Shown: positions 6,844 to 33,416 of the stretch, piece by piece
Layout of the letters: each line of letters begins with the position of its first letter
Numbering within the stretch: the stretch's first letter is position 1
From: a virus
DNA length: 36,597 nt
Strand: one strand, 5' to 3'
Virus record (IMG/VR): IMGVR_UViG_3300032291_003437
Location: 1-36,597 of that record
Notes under the pieces: generated by a model
Seen by the model: only the letters and a program-made list of their open reading frames with translations
Told to the model about the DNA's origin: nothing
Database searches by the model: none
Program-made: the position numbers and the translations under genes

Positions 6844-6939
6844 AAAAGGACAAATGACGAATGACGAATGATGAAGGGGAGGATCTCGCTCGCTGAAGGC
6901 GGCCCAGTCAGTGACTGAGCCGGGATTCAGCGGGCGGCC

Positions 6940-7368
6940 TCACCTCGAGATCGAGGCCGCCGTGGCACCTCTCAGGTGCTCTCCGGCTGCTTCCACAGCG
7001 AGGCTGGCGATGCGCAGGGCGAGGGCTTGAGCCTCGGGAGAATCAAAGGGCGTTTCGGTGATGAGGAGCTTGGCGGCATCCCCAGCGGCTTGCACGGTGG
7101 CAGCGGCGAGGGGTTTGTTTTCCGCATGCAAATTGACCGCCACGGCGCTGCTCACTTGAGAGGCCACTTGAAAGCCGAGCTGCTTCGCGGCGGCTTTGAC
7201 ATCCACCTTTTCACCGGCGGCTTTTTGCGCAGCTAGGTCGATGCTGGCGCGGGCCAAGGTCACACCGGTGTCGATGGCATCACGCTTCGTGAAGGCCGCA
7301 CAGGAGGTGAGGTGAAACCCGCCGATGGCGAGCATAAAAACAAGGATGACTTGGCCGATGAATTTCAT
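6940..7368 (-). CDS. Small lipoprotein, possibly a lysis (outer spanin-like) protein
   Basis: A 142-aa protein starting MKFIGQVILVFMLAIGGF with lipobox LTSC (Cys23), so predicted to be lipid-anchored. The mature part is Ala-rich and helical (VKAAAKQLGFQVASQVSSAVAVNL...). I chose the ATG at 7366-7368 rather than the upstream in-frame start because it places the signal peptide at the N-terminus. Its position next to the holin suggests a role at the outer membrane during lysis, but it is longer than typical o-spanins and is not Pro-rich; it could also be a superinfection-exclusion lipoprotein. The gene end overlaps a GGCGGCCTC/GAGGCCGCC hairpin (6933-6961). Confidence 0.7.
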   Translation of the reverse strand: MKFIGQVILVFMLAIGGFHLTSCAAFTKRDAIDTGVTLARASIDLAAQKAAGEKVDVKAAAKQLGFQVASQVSSAVAVNLHAENKPLAAATVQAAGDAAKLLITETPFDSPEAQALALRIASLAVEAAGEHLRGATAASISR

Positions 7369-7482
7369 GACGTGGGCTGGAGGTGGCTTGTTTTGTGAGG
7401 AGTGGCGGCGGGGAGGAAAACCAACCATGAAAAACTCCCCGCCGCCGTTTGGGTGAAGCGCTCGTCTTCACCTCACCCAAAG

Positions 7483-8178
7483 TTAAGAGGCAGTGGCATT
7501 CACCACGGCGCTGTATTCACCCTGGCCGTCCACGCTATCGACGGCGGCCACGCGGTAGTGGCGGCTTTGACCGGTGGTTACGGTGTGGGTGTAGGTGCTC
7601 GGCGTCGGTGTGGCGAGGTTTGCCCAGGTCACGCCCGCATCACTGGAGACTTGGATCTTGTAGGTGTCGGCATCCGTGATGTCGTCCCAGTTCACGACGA
7701 TCTGGCCGCTGCCAGGCGTGGCGGTGGCCACAGGGATGCCGATGTCGAGCAGGAAGCGCTCATTCGTGGCCGTGGCCACGCGGTAAGCGGGCTCGCCGTT
7801 GAGGCTGTCCCACATCTGAATGGTAAAGGAGAATTTGCGCTCCTTGCCATCGTCATAGGTGATCTTGGCACCCGTCATCACGCGGGCGGAGATGCCAGGG
7901 AGATCGACGAGCGTGATGAGGTTGTAGAGGCCGGGCAGAGAGACGCCGATGTCAAAGCAGGTCTCAATCGTGGCCGTGACGCCGGGCTTCTTGATGATGT
8001 GGGCGCGGAGGCCGCCTGCGCCATCGGTCAGCTCTTCGGCCTCGCCGGTTCGCTCCAGCTCGAATTTGGTGATCTTGCCAAAGGTGCTCCCCAGGACAGC
8101 CGTCCCGATGAGCGGGCGGGCGCTGCCGAGTTGCAGGATGTCATTGGCGGCAAAGGTGGTGGCGAAGGTGGCGGGCAT
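7483..8178 (-). CDS. Tail tube-like protein with C-terminal fibronectin III/Ig-like domain
   Basis: A 231-aa protein. Residues 1-130 align visibly with the 161-aa product of 11693-12178 (shared QLGSA.P.IGTA.LG..FG, later PG.......E, and L..Q.WD...) and probably form the tail-tube or major tail fold. Residues ~140-231 form a fibronectin type III domain (WDDITDADTYKIQVSSDAG...HYRVAAVDSVDGQGEYS), a common decoration on tail tubes. The start is supported by the late box GCAAGCGCCGCCC 57 nt upstream (8223-8235). Assignment to the tail is inference from the Ig-like tail and neighbours. No sheath gene is visible, so the tail may be non-contractile. Confidence 0.65.
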   Translation of the reverse strand: MPATFATTFAANDILQLGSARPLIGTAVLGSTFGKITKFELERTGEAEELTDGAGGLRAHIIKKPGVTATIETCFDIGVSLPGLYNLITLVDLPGISARVMTGAKITYDDGKERKFSFTIQMWDSLNGEPAYRVATATNERFLLDIGIPVATATPGSGQIVVNWDDITDADTYKIQVSSDAGVTWANLATPTPSTYTHTVTTGQSRHYRVAAVDSVDGQGEYSAVVNATAS

Positions 8179-8241: not shown

Positions 8242-10848
8242 TCAGTTGAAGATGAGAAAATTGACCTTCATCTCGGCAGAGGGAGCCGTGAGTAAGTGGA
8301 TCGTAAATGAGCCCGCTGCTGGCACGGCCCGGATGTTGGCAGCCGTGCTGTCATTGGTCGCCATGGTGACCAGCACGATGCTGTTGGCGGTCACTTGACT
8401 GTTGGTGACGGTTAAGGAGGTGGCACCGGCAGCAAAATTCACCGAACCGCACTGCGTGTTGATGGTGCGGGCTCCCGTGGTGCCTGCGGGGGTATTCGTG
8501 CGTCCGATGCCGGAGATGGGCACGTTGTTGAGTGTGAAACCTGTAGCCGTTGCGACCCAAATATAAGTTCCATTCAAGTAAGCATCCAAGCGGCGTGCCG
8601 AGGTTCCATCATCATAGACGCGGAGACCTGTCGTTGTGCCTGCCGCGATGAGTTGAGGAGCTGAAGCATTTGCCACGAGCCCTACGCGATCCATGGGCAG
8701 CATGCGCGTCGTTCCCGCTCCGCTGGTGCTCACGACTAGATTGCCACCGCCATCCACCACGGAGCCTGTGTTGACGAGGCCCGTGCCACTGCCGCTCGCC
8801 ATCACGCGGGACATGGCCAGATGCAGCGTGCCCGCATTGGTGATGCTGTGGGAGGTGCCCGCGCTGTCCACGCGGCAGTTGGTCAGCCAGAGGGCGGAGC
8901 CGCTGGCCACGTCCACGCCAGGCCGGTTGCCCGTGGTGCCCCAAGGGAGGAGTTGACTGCCTTGCACTCGCACGTTGGAGTTTCCTCGAACAATGAGCCC
9001 TGCGAATCCCACGGCTGCCGAGGCGCGGCAATTCGTGATCACCACGTCCGTGCTGTTGTTCACATCCACGCAACCGTTGAGACTTTCATCAAACCAGCAG
9101 TTTTCCAGCACGGCGAAGCTCTTGTTGTTGAGATTGCCTGTGAGGCCATCAATCGAGATGGAAAACTGGCCGCAGTTCGCCATGATGCTCTCCGAGATCC
9201 ATGCGGAGGCTCCGCTGGATAAAGAGATGCCGTTGAAGCCAAGGCTTTCGATGTAAACGCGCTCGACCTTTTGAAAGTAGCCCGTGAGGGAGACGCCGCT
9301 CGTGGTGCCGTAGAGGTACTCGATTCGCACATCTCTCAGGGCCTCATTGATAAAGCCAGCCATTTCAATGACGTGTTTGCCGGACGCGCTCCATTGGTAG
9401 TAACACCCCTCCACGCTAAAGCCCTCAATGCGGGTGTCGAAGCAGTTGCCGTTCGTTTTTGCCAGCATCGCCGTGGCGGCCAGATCGTGATTGGGTGAGG
9501 GGAAAAAGATCGTGTTGGCGGTGCCATGGCCAATGATGCCAGCGGCCTTTTGCGTGGAGGCGCTTTCGGTGAAATCGAAGAGCAGCTTATCAAAAATGTA
9601 ACCGCCCGATGGCACCTCCACCAGGGCGCGAGGCTGCATGGCTTTGGCGGCGGTTACGGCGGCTAAAATGGCCGTGGTATCATTGGTGCCAAAGACCAGG
9701 TGAATGCCCGTGTAAGCACCGATGCCAGTGCCGCTGCCACTGACGACGATGGTGGTCGAATTCGTGACGCTGGCAATCGAACGAACCGAAAGCCGCAGAA
9801 CCTTACTAGCCGTCTCTACGCCCCAAATCGTCTTGCCTACATCAGCGGCTGTGAAATTGGCCGTGGCACTGGTCACCGTGGTGGAGTTATTCGAAAGCAC
9901 GGCATCCGTCACCTTCCTGGAATCGCCCTTGGCTCCGTAGTTCTTCACGTTGAGGGTGGTCCCTTTGGGGGCCAGCGCGGTGATGGCTTGGCTGATGCGT
10001 TGCGGGCTGAATTTGCGAATGGCGCTCTCCGTGCCCGCTTCCGCCTCCGCCTGGCTGGCGGCGGTCTGCACATCTTCTTTGGTGGCAAGGCCGCTGGTCA
10101 GCTCGCTTTGCTCCGCCATATCGGTGGCAAAGCTAGGGTTGGGGTAGGTGCCAGAGAGCACACCGCCTGCGCCTGTTGAGCTACTCATGAGCGTGCCCGT
10201 GTGCGAGGGCAACGTTAGCGTGTAATTGTCGGCCAACGAAGACCCGGCAATCAAGCGCACGGAATGGGAAGAATCCGCATCGAAAATGTGAAGCAGCCCC
10301 GAAGTAACTCCACCGCCAGCGATGTTGATCCGACTATTAAAAGTCGGATTACTCAGCAGTGCAAAATCCGTGATTGTGGCGCTTTGTGTGGCCAAGGTGC
10401 CTAATCCCAAAGCTGTGCGGGCATTGCCCGGCGTGAGGTTCACCCAATCCCCCGCGCTCTTCACGAGAAAGTCATTGGTGGCCGCGCTGGTGATCGTCAC
10501 ATCGGTGAGGCCGGTGAGGTTTGCCGCCGAGGCGATGCTGATACTGCCGCCCAAGCTCACGGCGGTGCCGTTGATTGTCACGCTGCTATTGAGCAGCTTG
10601 GCATTTGTTAGGCTGCCATCGGCGATTCGGGCGATGGGGAGCGTGCCGGTGGTGATGTTGCTCGCGTTGATCGCACTGGTGAGAGAGTAGAGCTCGGTGA
10701 AGTTCGTGTTCACCTTGCCAAAGGCGGTGCGCAATGTGTCGCCGGTGCCATCGCTGGGTGTGGTGCCGATGTTGATGGTCTGCTGAGCGCCGTAGCACGA
10801 GGCCAGGAAGGCGGTGAGGATGAGGAGGATGATGGCGGGGAGCTTCAT
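8242..10848 (-). CDS. Tail spike/fibre with pectate-lyase-like beta-helix and lipoprotein-type signal peptide
   Basis: 868 aa. Residues 28-55 carry the fibre-attachment motif GTTPSDGTGDTLRTAFGKVN. About 60-295 is a Gly/Ser/Thr-rich shaft, and LNVKNYGAKGDS near 300 starts a pectate-lyase-superfamily right-handed beta-helix running to about 700, the fold used by spikes that bind or cut surface polysaccharide. The last ~85 residues (VNFAAGATSLTVTNSQVTANS...) resemble a fibre C-terminal trimerisation domain. The oddity is the N-terminus: MKLPAIILLILTAF followed by LASC (Cys18), a textbook lipoprotein signal peptide, unexpected for a virion protein assembled in the cytoplasm. The start is supported by the late box GGAAGCTCCGTAA at exactly -54. 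Alternatives: initiation nearer residue 20, or a phage-encoded surface lipoprotein derived from a spike. Confidence 0.8.
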   Translation of the reverse strand: MKLPAIILLILTAFLASCYGAQQTINIGTTPSDGTGDTLRTAFGKVNTNFTELYSLTSAINASNITTGTLPIARIADGSLTNAKLLNSSVTINGTAVSLGGSISIASAANLTGLTDVTITSAATNDFLVKSAGDWVNLTPGNARTALGLGTLATQSATITDFALLSNPTFNSRINIAGGGVTSGLLHIFDADSSHSVRLIAGSSLADNYTLTLPSHTGTLMSSSTGAGGVLSGTYPNPSFATDMAEQSELTSGLATKEDVQTAASQAEAEAGTESAIRKFSPQRISQAITALAPKGTTLNVKNYGAKGDSRKVTDAVLSNNSTTVTSATANFTAADVGKTIWGVETASKVLRLSVRSIASVTNSTTIVVSGSGTGIGAYTGIHLVFGTNDTTAILAAVTAAKAMQPRALVEVPSGGYIFDKLLFDFTESASTQKAAGIIGHGTANTIFFPSPNHDLAATAMLAKTNGNCFDTRIEGFSVEGCYYQWSASGKHVIEMAGFINEALRDVRIEYLYGTTSGVSLTGYFQKVERVYIESLGFNGISLSSGASAWISESIMANCGQFSISIDGLTGNLNNKSFAVLENCWFDESLNGCVDVNNSTDVVITNCRASAAVGFAGLIVRGNSNVRVQGSQLLPWGTTGNRPGVDVASGSALWLTNCRVDSAGTSHSITNAGTLHLAMSRVMASGSGTGLVNTGSVVDGGGNLVVSTSGAGTTRMLPMDRVGLVANASAPQLIAAGTTTGLRVYDDGTSARRLDAYLNGTYIWVATATGFTLNNVPISGIGRTNTPAGTTGARTINTQCGSVNFAAGATSLTVTNSQVTANSIVLVTMATNDSTAANIRAVPAAGSFTIHLLTAPSAEMKVNFLIFN

Positions 10849-10889
10849 AGGAATGAGGAAGGATGAATGATGAATGATGAATGACGGGT

Positions 10890-10902
10890 TTACGGAGCTT
10901 CC
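10890..10902 (-). promoter_or_regulatory. Late box upstream of 10848 gene
   Basis: GGAAGCTCCGTAA on the minus strand, 54 nt before the ATG. The leader between is built from TTCATCA/TTCATCC words. Confidence 0.5.
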
Positions 10903-11618
10903 TCGCGCCAGGCGAGGTTGAGGGTCACGATGCTGCCGCTGATGACGGCCCCGGAGGCGCGGAGCGCGAGGCCCTCATTGGGGCGCAGAATAAGCGGCGC
11001 ATTTTCGAGGGCGGGAGAGATCACCACGTCTTCGGCAGCGCTCAGGTGCCCCAGGAGCATCATTACCGCTCCAAACGTTGCGCTGGTGGTGGTGACACCG
11101 CCGGGTGCATGGCGGGCATCCACACCGGCGGCGGTGGCATTGGCGCTGTCCCGGATCGAAGGCGTGGCCGCCGTGCCGCCGGTGGGCGTGGTGCCGGTGA
11201 AGCGCTGAAGGCTGTAGAGGCTCCGCGTGGCCGCTGGTGTACCGGTGAAGCTCAGCAGGGCCAGCAGGCTGTGGAGACGCATCACATTGGTGCCGGTGTT
11301 TTTGATGGCAAAGTAAGTGGTGCCATCCGTGAGCGTGGAGGGCACGAGATTGAGGCTCAGACTGTACTCACTCTCCGGCATGCCATCGAGCACGATGCGG
11401 CCCACACGGGCCGTGCCTGCGATGAGAGAGGGCAGAGCGGTGACCTGTGTTTTTTGGTCGCCACTTGTGAGCGTGGCATCCAGGGCGATGCCGAGATCTG
11501 AGCCGGCCGCATTGTTGAGCACCACGCGGGAGAGGTGTTTGGTTCCGGTTTCGGAGATCGTGTGCGTGGCGATGAGCGTTCCGGCTCCTTGAGTGACGGC
11601 GATGGATGATGCGGGCAT
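10890..11618 (-). CDS. Probable virion structural protein, unknown
   Basis: A 242-aa protein, beta-rich and Thr/Ser/Ala-rich (MPASSIAVTQGAGTLIATHTISETGTKHLSRVVLNNAAG...), with no signal peptide or membrane segment and few charged residues. It resembles extended-beta virion components such as tail or fibre-attachment proteins. It lies between a tail-tube-like gene and the spike gene. Start supported by the late box GCAAGAGACGAGG at -54 (11660-11672). The intervening leader is a GA-rich word repeat containing SD-like AGGAGG. A CGGGCTAAAGCCCG palindrome lies just upstream of the box. Confidence 0.6.
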   Translation of the reverse strand: MPASSIAVTQGAGTLIATHTISETGTKHLSRVVLNNAAGSDLGIALDATLTSGDQKTQVTALPSLIAGTARVGRIVLDGMPESEYSLSLNLVPSTLTDGTTYFAIKNTGTNVMRLHSLLALLSFTGTPAATRSLYSLQRFTGTTPTGGTAATPSIRDSANATAAGVDARHAPGGVTTTSATFGAVMMLLGHLSAAEDVVISPALENAPLILRPNEGLALRASGAVISGSIVTLNLAWREEAP

Positions 11619-11659: not shown

Positions 11660-11672
11660 CCTCGTCTCTTGC
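11660..11672 (-). promoter_or_regulatory. Late box upstream of 11618 gene
   Basis: GCAAGAGACGAGG on the minus strand, 54 nt before the ATG; identical to the box at 13144-13156. Confidence 0.65.
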
Positions 11673-11676
11673 GGCA

Positions 11677-11700
11677 CGGGCTAAAGCCCGAACTACAAAC
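11677..11700 (+). repeat. REP-like palindrome CGGGCTAAAGCCCG-AACTAC
   Basis: Copy of the family seen at 6577-6600 and 25562-25585. Read on the minus strand, its tail supplies the stop codon (TAG, 11693-11695) of the 11693-12178 gene. Confidence 0.7.
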
Positions 11701-12178
11701 CGCTCAGCGGCACGCCTCCTAGCATCCCCTGCCAGGCAGGGGCCACGAGCACCTCGTCGATGTTGTCGGTGCCGCCACCGATGAGCAGGCGATAGGCCTT
11801 GGCGCTCTCCATGGTATCCCACTGGCTGAGCTGCAGGGTGAGCAGCCGCTCCCCGCCGCTGAAAGCCACGCGGCTGCCTTCCATCACGCGGCCCATGATG
11901 GACAGGTAAGGGAACAGCACCTCCTCAAGCAATCCAGGCGGCTGCACGGATAGCTCGAAAGCGCAGGTCATTTCGATCACAAAGCCGGGGTTGTTGATGA
12001 GCAAGATAAGCAGCTCACCGGCATCATTGGTGATGGGCACGCGTTCACCGGTGCGCACAAGGAAGGCTTCCAGCACGGTGCCAAACTGCGTGCCCAGCAT
12101 GGCCGTGCCGATCACCGGCGCGGCGCTGCCGAGCTGGTAGTGGCTGAGGGCGGGAAGGGTGTCGGTGAAGGTGAGCAT
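11693..12178 (-). CDS. Tail tube-like protein (paralogue of the 7483-8178 product)
   Basis: A 161-aa protein (MLTFTDTLPALSHYQLGSAAPVIGTAMLG...) clearly related to the first 130 residues of the 231-aa protein at 7483-8178 but without its fibronectin-like domain. The frame continues upstream to a start at 12211. I chose the ATG at 12176-12178 because it puts the paralogues' N-termini in register and lies 55 nt from a late box (GGAAGAGCGGCCC, 12221-12233). Possible roles are a second tube subunit, tail completion or tail-tip protein. The C-terminus ends inside a REP-like repeat that provides the stop codon. Confidence 0.6.
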   Translation of the reverse strand: MLTFTDTLPALSHYQLGSAAPVIGTAMLGTQFGTVLEAFLVRTGERVPITNDAGELLILLINNPGFVIEMTCAFELSVQPPGLLEEVLFPYLSIMGRVMEGSRVAFSGGERLLTLQLSQWDTMESAKAYRLLIGGGTDNIDEVLVAPAWQGMLGGVPLSGL

Positions 12179-12220
12179 GGCGGGGAGCATGGGGCGTGGA
12201 GCCTGGGGCATGGAGCCGGA

Positions 12221-12900: not shown

Positions 12901-12961
12901 AAAAGATCAAAAATGAAAGATAAAAGATGAAGGCTGGCGCTGCTTTGATCTTTGATCTTTT
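12901..12961. repeat. Word-mirrored inverted repeat (GATCAAA family)
   Basis: AAAAGATCAAA (12901-12911) pairs with TTTGATCTTTT (12951-12961), between two minus-strand genes. It could act as a weak terminator or a structured leader, but there is no GC-rich stem. Confidence 0.5.
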
Positions 12962-13256: not shown

Positions 13257-13691
13257 TCACTTCCCCTTCTTCTCCAACGCAAAATCCGCCTTCGTGCCGA
13301 TCACGCCTAATGCCCGCTCCATGGTGAGCTGCCAGCCGGTGAAGCGCTCCATGGCTTCGTCAAACTTTGCCATGCTGTCTTCGTGCTGTGCTTGCTGCTG
13401 CGTCATCCACGACTCGAAGCGCTTTTCAATGCGGGCATCGCTGTCCTTGTGCTCCTGTTTGGCCTTCTCAGCTTCCTCTTCGATTTGGGCTCTTGCGGCA
13501 GCCAGCTCCGCCTTCGTGGCATACAGTTCGTGGGCCGGTGGGGAAGCTTGCGGAAAGAGGCGGTCCCACAAGGCCATGCCTTGATTCGCGAGGCCGACGA
13601 TGCCGAAGACTCCGGCGATGATCCATCCCATGCCTGCATAGGAGGTGGGCTCAGGCAGTTCGGCGAGCAAAGGGCAAAGAGTGGAAAGCAT
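13257..13691 (-). CDS. Membrane-anchored coiled-coil protein
   Basis: A 144-aa protein with one membrane span (about residues 20-42, YAGMGWIIAGVFGIVGLANQGMALW) followed by a long charged coiled coil (about 55-125, ATKAELAAARAQIEEEAEKAKQEHKD...). This resembles an inner-membrane spanin or a holin-associated protein, yet it lies far from the lysis genes. The start at 13691 rather than the longer frame is supported by the late box GCAAGAGCCGGAC 55 nt upstream. First gene of the left-arm late block. Confidence 0.6.
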   Translation of the reverse strand: MLSTLCPLLAELPEPTSYAGMGWIIAGVFGIVGLANQGMALWDRLFPQASPPAHELYATKAELAAARAQIEEEAEKAKQEHKDSDARIEKRFESWMTQQQAQHEDSMAKFDEAMERFTGWQLTMERALGVIGTKADFALEKKGK

Positions 13692-29320: not shown

Positions 29321-29327
29321 TCAAGCC

Positions 29328-29340
29328 GCAAGAGCCGGAC
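29328..29340 (+). promoter_or_regulatory. Late box upstream of 29381 gene
   Basis: GCAAGAGCCGGAC, 53 nt before the ATG, identical to 13734-13746 on the opposite arm. The GA-rich leader contains GGAGGAGG. Confidence 0.65.
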
Positions 29341-33392: not shown

Positions 33393-33403
33393 GTGGATCC
33401 GCC

Positions 33404-33416
33404 GCAAGAGCCGAGG
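33404..33416 (+). promoter_or_regulatory. Late box upstream of the tape-measure gene
   Basis: GCAAGAGCCGAGG, 54 nt before the ATG at 33458; the leader is GA-rich. Confidence 0.65.

Follow-up and report, generated by a model that had tools for sequence, protein, structure and literature searches.

A beta-helix phage spike with a predicted export signal in front of a T4 gp9/gp10-like docking motif

The usual view is that tail fibres and spikes are assembled in the cytoplasm along with the rest of the tail, and the beta-helix tailspikes of the Sf6 type and of the Klebsiella phage depolymerases are virion spikes made in that compartment. Export of virion proteins by Sec prior to assembly is known for the coat proteins of filamentous phages; these phages, however, are not tailed, and their coat is assembled at the membrane. 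The superinfection-exclusion lipoproteins Llp and Cor are short, under about 100 amino acids.

In phage T4, the N-terminal domain of gp9 is reported to bind the baseplate protein gp7 (PMC3004832). In proteins of the gp9/gp10 type the motif follows directly upon the initiator Met, with no signal in front of it. Signal peptides have been described for other phage products. Lambda Lom, whose gene lies between the spike and fibre genes, is reported as an envelope protein with a signal peptide (PMC12309495), but it is an outer-membrane beta-barrel and not a spike; some endolysins likewise are reported to carry signal peptides, with late proteins exported by Sec (PMC6116005), but these are lysis enzymes and not tail parts. 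A search of the open-access literature, which leaves out most subscription papers, turned up no report of exported tail fibres, with PMC8144416, PMC8825819, PMC3338817, PMC9658697 and the three papers cited above among those consulted.

Here we analyze a virus contig of 36,597 bases from a Mu-like phage (Portal_Mu at 943-2514, E 7.7e-50), the whole of which we call the window. Its spike shares the N-terminal motif of T4 gp9, gp10 and their kin. In the precursor the motif starts only at residue 21, behind a predicted export signal; if that signal is cut off where we predict, the motif would be spaced from the mature end as it is in those proteins. With its 868 residues the protein is too large for the class of Llp and Cor, which we considered and rejected.

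The spike gene and its N-terminus

The spike gene (8242..10848, minus strand) is an open reading frame for 868 amino acids that starts with ATG; its product begins MKLPAIILLILTAFLASCYGAQQTINIGTTPSDGTGDTLRTAFGKVNTNFTELYS. The N-terminus of its product, MKLPAIILLILTAFLASC, consists of a hydrophobic segment with a lipobox (L15-A16-S17-C18), followed directly by the docking motif. This motif, residues 21-55 (AQQTINIGTTPSDGTGDTLRTAFGKVNTNFTELYS; 10684..10788, minus), is recognized by three comparisons: Pfam T4_gp9_10_N (PF07880) matches residues 22-59 with an E value of 3.4e-4, its 21.1 bits lying below the family's gathering cut-off of 25; PHROG 677, "baseplate wedge tail fiber protein connector", matches residues 21-245 (E 1.1e-5); and residues 2-35 of T4 gp10 can be aligned with residues 22-55 of the spike (E 0.046). 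Further downstream, a pectate-lyase-like region (residues 296-676; 8821..9963, minus) qualifies as a right-handed beta-helix, with Beta_helix (PF13229) scoring 27.2 bits over residues 516-659 against a cut-off of 25.9. The AlphaFold model is poor (mean pLDDT 48.8), too poor to address the N-terminus or the trimer, and its better part, approximately residues 296-660, is the beta-helix; in Foldseek it matched the Sf6 tailspike, Klebsiella phage depolymerases and alginate epimerases with E values of 1e-5 to 1e-3 and low TM scores; the likeness to these tailspikes consists of the Pfam domain and weak fold matches. The C-terminal domain (residues 788-867; 8248..8487, minus) resembles phage spike and fibre C-termini, with a weak K1-lyase_C match and 46% identity to gp15 of EBPR podovirus 3. 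These results confirm the anatomy given in the original prediction, which described a beta-helix spike with an attachment motif behind a hydrophobic segment ending in LASC.

The putative signal peptide occupies residues 1-20 (MKLPAIILLILTAFLASCYG; 10789..10848, minus) and ends in a site of the signal peptidase I type between CYG and AQQ. The lipobox LASC (residues 15-18; 10795..10806, minus) would offer signal peptidase II an alternative site before Cys18, and our own predictor finds the sequence features of a lipoprotein here, namely an n-region with K2, a hydrophobic core and LASC. That the N-terminus carries an export signal is supported by sequence, and the arrangement recurs in other phages, as described below. 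That the window's spike is specifically a lipoprotein, as had been proposed, is possible; as a label for signal-bearing spikes in general, however, "lipoprotein" appears too narrow, because the lipobox Cys occurs in only 3 of 17 such N-termini (those of the window, L196 and L262) and a site of the type I kind is common instead.

Signal-bearing spikes in other phages

In ordinary proteins the position of the motif is nearly invariant: the nearest in-frame start lies exactly 16 residues before its GD in 96 of 97 occurrences (47 loci), and the sole exception, L212, is itself signal-bearing. With a general pattern, inspection by eye of 163 occurrences at 120 loci found no signal peptide directly before the motif. 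Plain motif starts are also present in Nonlabens phages P12024L and P12024S and in one Bradyrhizobium phage. Nevertheless, 16 further distinct N-termini, all from contigs of uncultured phages, have a predicted Sec signal in place of the initiator Met, bringing the number to 17 with the window. Three of them (L005, L006 and L014) were found among relatives of the window, three others (L160, L196 and L212) by alignment scan, and L219 as a chance match of a differently framed pattern. The framed pattern proper looked for non-polar residues correctly spaced ahead of the motif. It matched 76 stretches in the viral collection, and of the occurrences in the 71 loci newly fetched for these, 17 resembled signals and 70 did not. 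Repeated records were merged: L006/L019, L212/L242 and L005/L018/L020 are each one contig, and L232/L252/L258/L269/L276/L285, L250/L268 and L283/L300 were each counted once in the 17. The original prediction had called for the N-termini of homologues with and without the signal to be compared, and this comparison did yield both forms.

The GC content of 16 signal-bearing loci ranges from 34 to 61%. We suspect hosts among the Bacteroidota and Verrucomicrobiota. All 17 N-termini combine a hydrophobic core with either a cleavage site or a lipobox, and most also have a charged n-region. Motif columns that were not part of the search pattern are about as conserved with the signal as without it (N in 13/17 versus 12/17; D in 15/17 versus 17/17). 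Each of the 19 signal-bearing records examined contains exactly one motif protein and no separate signal-less copy was seen in them, with the qualification that many are fragments in which a second, signal-less spike could be missed, and that L252/L258 and L283/L300 are near duplicates; among the proteins seen, the signal-bearing one would then be alone in being able to occupy the docking site. Between L250 and L268, 2 of 19 signal codons differ, as against 63 of 81 mature codons, which suggests either that the signal has been kept while the rest diverged or that it was recently exchanged. Among phage records, we found no hit covering 80% of signal plus motif in the best 60 of 1782 records matching the first 60 residues of the window's spike, nor with two further queries in the best 40 of 58 and the best 40 of 1297; a scan of genome contigs returned a single locus, which lacks the signal-plus-motif arrangement. 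Cysteine content was considered as a sign of oxidative folding and then dropped: signal-bearing spikes average 0.34% against 0.14% in controls (P 0.037; 15 spikes, L196 and L231 left out), and 6 of the 15 have no cysteine at all.

The motif would come to lie at the mature N-terminus of the window's spike only if the signal were cleaved, and a candidate site fits. We asked at each offset, counted in residues to GD, whether a small residue stood at -1 and a small or aliphatic one at -3. The rule is crude and the set small, and the question is only whether a site fits. The rule is satisfied at offset 15 in 11 of the 17 signal-bearing N-termini, with 7 of 17 at the next best offset, and offset 15 is where an ordinary MAQQTINIG protein begins once its Met has been removed. 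The docking motif of signal-bearing spikes keeps its spacing from the predicted mature end. An automatic site picker placed the cut at this offset in only 7 of 17; in the window it cut after Cys18, and its choice for L262 was plainly wrong. In the window the cut would probably fall between CYG and AQQTINIG, with AQQTINIGTTPSDGTGDTLR as the semi-tryptic peptide expected at the new N-terminus, but it may instead fall before Cys18 with a lipid attached.

A comparison at a single locus is provided by L306, the closest relative and the one match to the window's terminase in the viral collection (86% identical; among phage records this terminase had no match). In the same slot L306 has a spike with the same motif and no signal, lying between matching genes: the upstream neighbour (10890..11618, minus), which is 76% identical in L306 and serves as the synteny anchor, and the downstream neighbour, a tail-type protein (7483..8178, minus) with 72% nucleotide identity to its counterpart. 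The two spikes are 66% identical over residues 21-58 and share, by alignment, a second stretch at residues 191-286 (9991..10278, minus; 40%). In L306 the start codon of the spike shares its A with the end of the upstream stop codon (TAATG), and the protein begins M-ARQNINLG. At this junction the window has instead a leader of 41 nt (10849..10889, minus), not present in L306, which separates the upstream stop from the spike start, and then 20 signal codons followed by AQQTINIG. By this comparison, the predicted signal has been gained or lost within the window/L306 lineage. A spike bearing a putative signal thus occurs together with a tail of a kind that, in the relative, accepts a plain spike. 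A further scan, with the upstream neighbour as query, added no third phage to this pair.

Neighbouring genes and possible fates of the spike

Signals are also predicted on genes near the signal-bearing spikes. Among same-strand ORFs of at least 100 amino acids in the 5 kb that follow signal-bearing motif genes, 18 of 46 were called, versus 2 of 229 in the controls (Fisher P 6e-14), a difference for part of which host or phage group may account, the controls being mostly other phage types; upstream, 6 of 58 were called. This count covers 16 loci, with both L250 and L268 included and the window and L231 left out, and 111 of 120 control loci that had a usable motif ORF. The calls come from a home-made, uncalibrated predictor, which called 29 of 915 control ORFs, made several doubtful calls and missed an evident signal in L014. 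At L278 (7698-12695) the motif gene is followed by four consecutive ORFs with predicted signals, and L212 and L014 also have several signal-bearing ORFs downstream. The window's immediate downstream neighbour has no predicted signal; the gene next after it (6940-7428, minus) is lipoprotein-like by our predictor, with an LTSC lipobox, and may encode an outer-membrane spanin or some other protein of the envelope. The counterpart of this gene in L306 (6268-6768) has the lipobox LAAC. The tail-type proteins encoded at 7483-8178 and 11693-12211 are apparently related (a 58-nt stretch is 72% identical), the former having an extra C-terminal Fn3-like part.

Taken together, we favor, tentatively and at close to an even chance, a model in which a real spike is made as a Sec precursor, exported, trimmed to its docking end and attached to tails outside the cytoplasm. 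The signal would stand in place of the initiator Met of an otherwise ordinary gp9/gp10-anchored spike, and the signal peptidase cut would recreate the usual mature N-terminus, A-Q-Q-T-I-N-I-G. The spike would then wait, folded, in the periplasm until lysis mixes the compartments and allows it to join tails made in the cytoplasm, the joining itself thus probably occurring at lysis. What we read in the sequences is the signal, the fixed docking motif behind it, the recurrence of this arrangement and the signal-less L306 spike; from these we infer export, cleavage, trimerisation, docking at the baseplate and the timing of docking. We think that an exported spike would still end up on tails, given its conserved docking end and spacing and the with/without pair, and for the same reasons it does not follow that export removes the spike from virion assembly, as the original prediction had reasoned. 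The lipid-anchored form, possible in the window and clear by sequence in L196, would be tethered to the membrane, which is awkward for transfer to tails.

The strongest competitor, a serious one though in our view somewhat less likely than tail docking, is that the exported spike is not a virion part but is displayed on the envelope or released at lysis, where it would block receptors or bind or degrade matrix polysaccharide, the docking motif being a leftover or serving trimer formation. This was in essence the surface-displayed copy of the original prediction. It would account for the three lipoboxes and the signal-bearing downstream genes at least as well as tail docking would, and it is in line with the lectin-like Laminin_G_3 domain of the signal-bearing motif protein of L268 and with the signals at the start of beta-helix relatives in which the motif is absent (L003, L012 and L013, three of six inspected); moreover, the presence nearby of genes that lack the motif but whose products are predicted to be exported hints at a possible role for the cassette outside virions. 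However, it leaves the conserved motif and its conserved distance from the predicted mature end to be explained, as well as the plain spike in the same slot of L306, and in a diderm a protein cut by the type I enzyme remains periplasmic up to lysis if no other route of secretion is available.

Another possibility is that the signal works poorly, with a cytoplasmic fraction, uncleaved or made from a second start, entering virions while the remainder is exported. We regard this as unlikely. Some in-frame start does lie 13-20 residues before GD in 8 of the 17 N-termini, but ATG is found in L160 alone, the others being GTG or TTG, codons that occur for Val and Leu anyway, and in the window there is no in-frame ATG, GTG or TTG from codon 6 to GD, which speaks against the two starts suggested originally. 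It is very improbable that the hydrophobic N-terminus plays no part in export and forms a structural plug in the virion, given the recurrent cores with a cleavage site or lipobox and the mostly charged n-regions. A wrong start or a sequencing error can hardly be credited: there is no clear ribosome-binding site upstream of the spike start, but each of the 20 signal codons has G or C in the third position, as is usual in this phage's coding sequence, and the 16 further N-termini come from other contigs.

To return to attachment of exported spikes to tails, unrelated phages with the same arrangement suggest that tail building may in some cases be completed outside the cytoplasm. In its general form, namely that some tailed phages make two-compartment virions, with heads and tails from the cytoplasm and Sec-exported fibres and spikes that are cut back to their docking end and added at lysis, and with the signal gained or lost at a single locus between close relatives such as the window and L306, the proposal is conceivable but falls short of an even chance. 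Signal-bearing spikes in several phage contigs, with a predicted cut that would restore the docking end, together with a with/without pair at one locus, make extracytoplasmic virion assembly directly testable. If the spikes are displayed or released instead, they would constitute a class of phage-made surface proteins filed as tail fibres; in either case, the annotation of such phages and the prediction of their receptor-binding proteins would have to be revised.

Sequences upstream of the spike

A late box at exactly -54 had been taken to support the spike's start. A 12-nt box (GCCGCAAGAGCC/AC) is indeed found upstream of three genes, at 11664-11675 (minus), 29325-29336 (plus) and 33401-33412 (plus), that is, at -57, -56 and -57 of genes 11618 (minus), 29381 (plus) and 33458 (plus), respectively. 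Its best match before the spike, however, is poor, being equalled by 1398 of 5000 random stretches, and does not sustain the claim, with the proviso that the box meant there was undefined and may differ from ours. Further copies or near copies of the 12-nt box lie at 13499 and 13749 (minus). An AT-rich leader repeat of the TTCATCATTCATC type (minus strand) stands just before three genes, at 6846-6875, 10852-10881 and 12902-12931, and near 7103 in L306 there is peptide read-through of a similar AT-rich leader.
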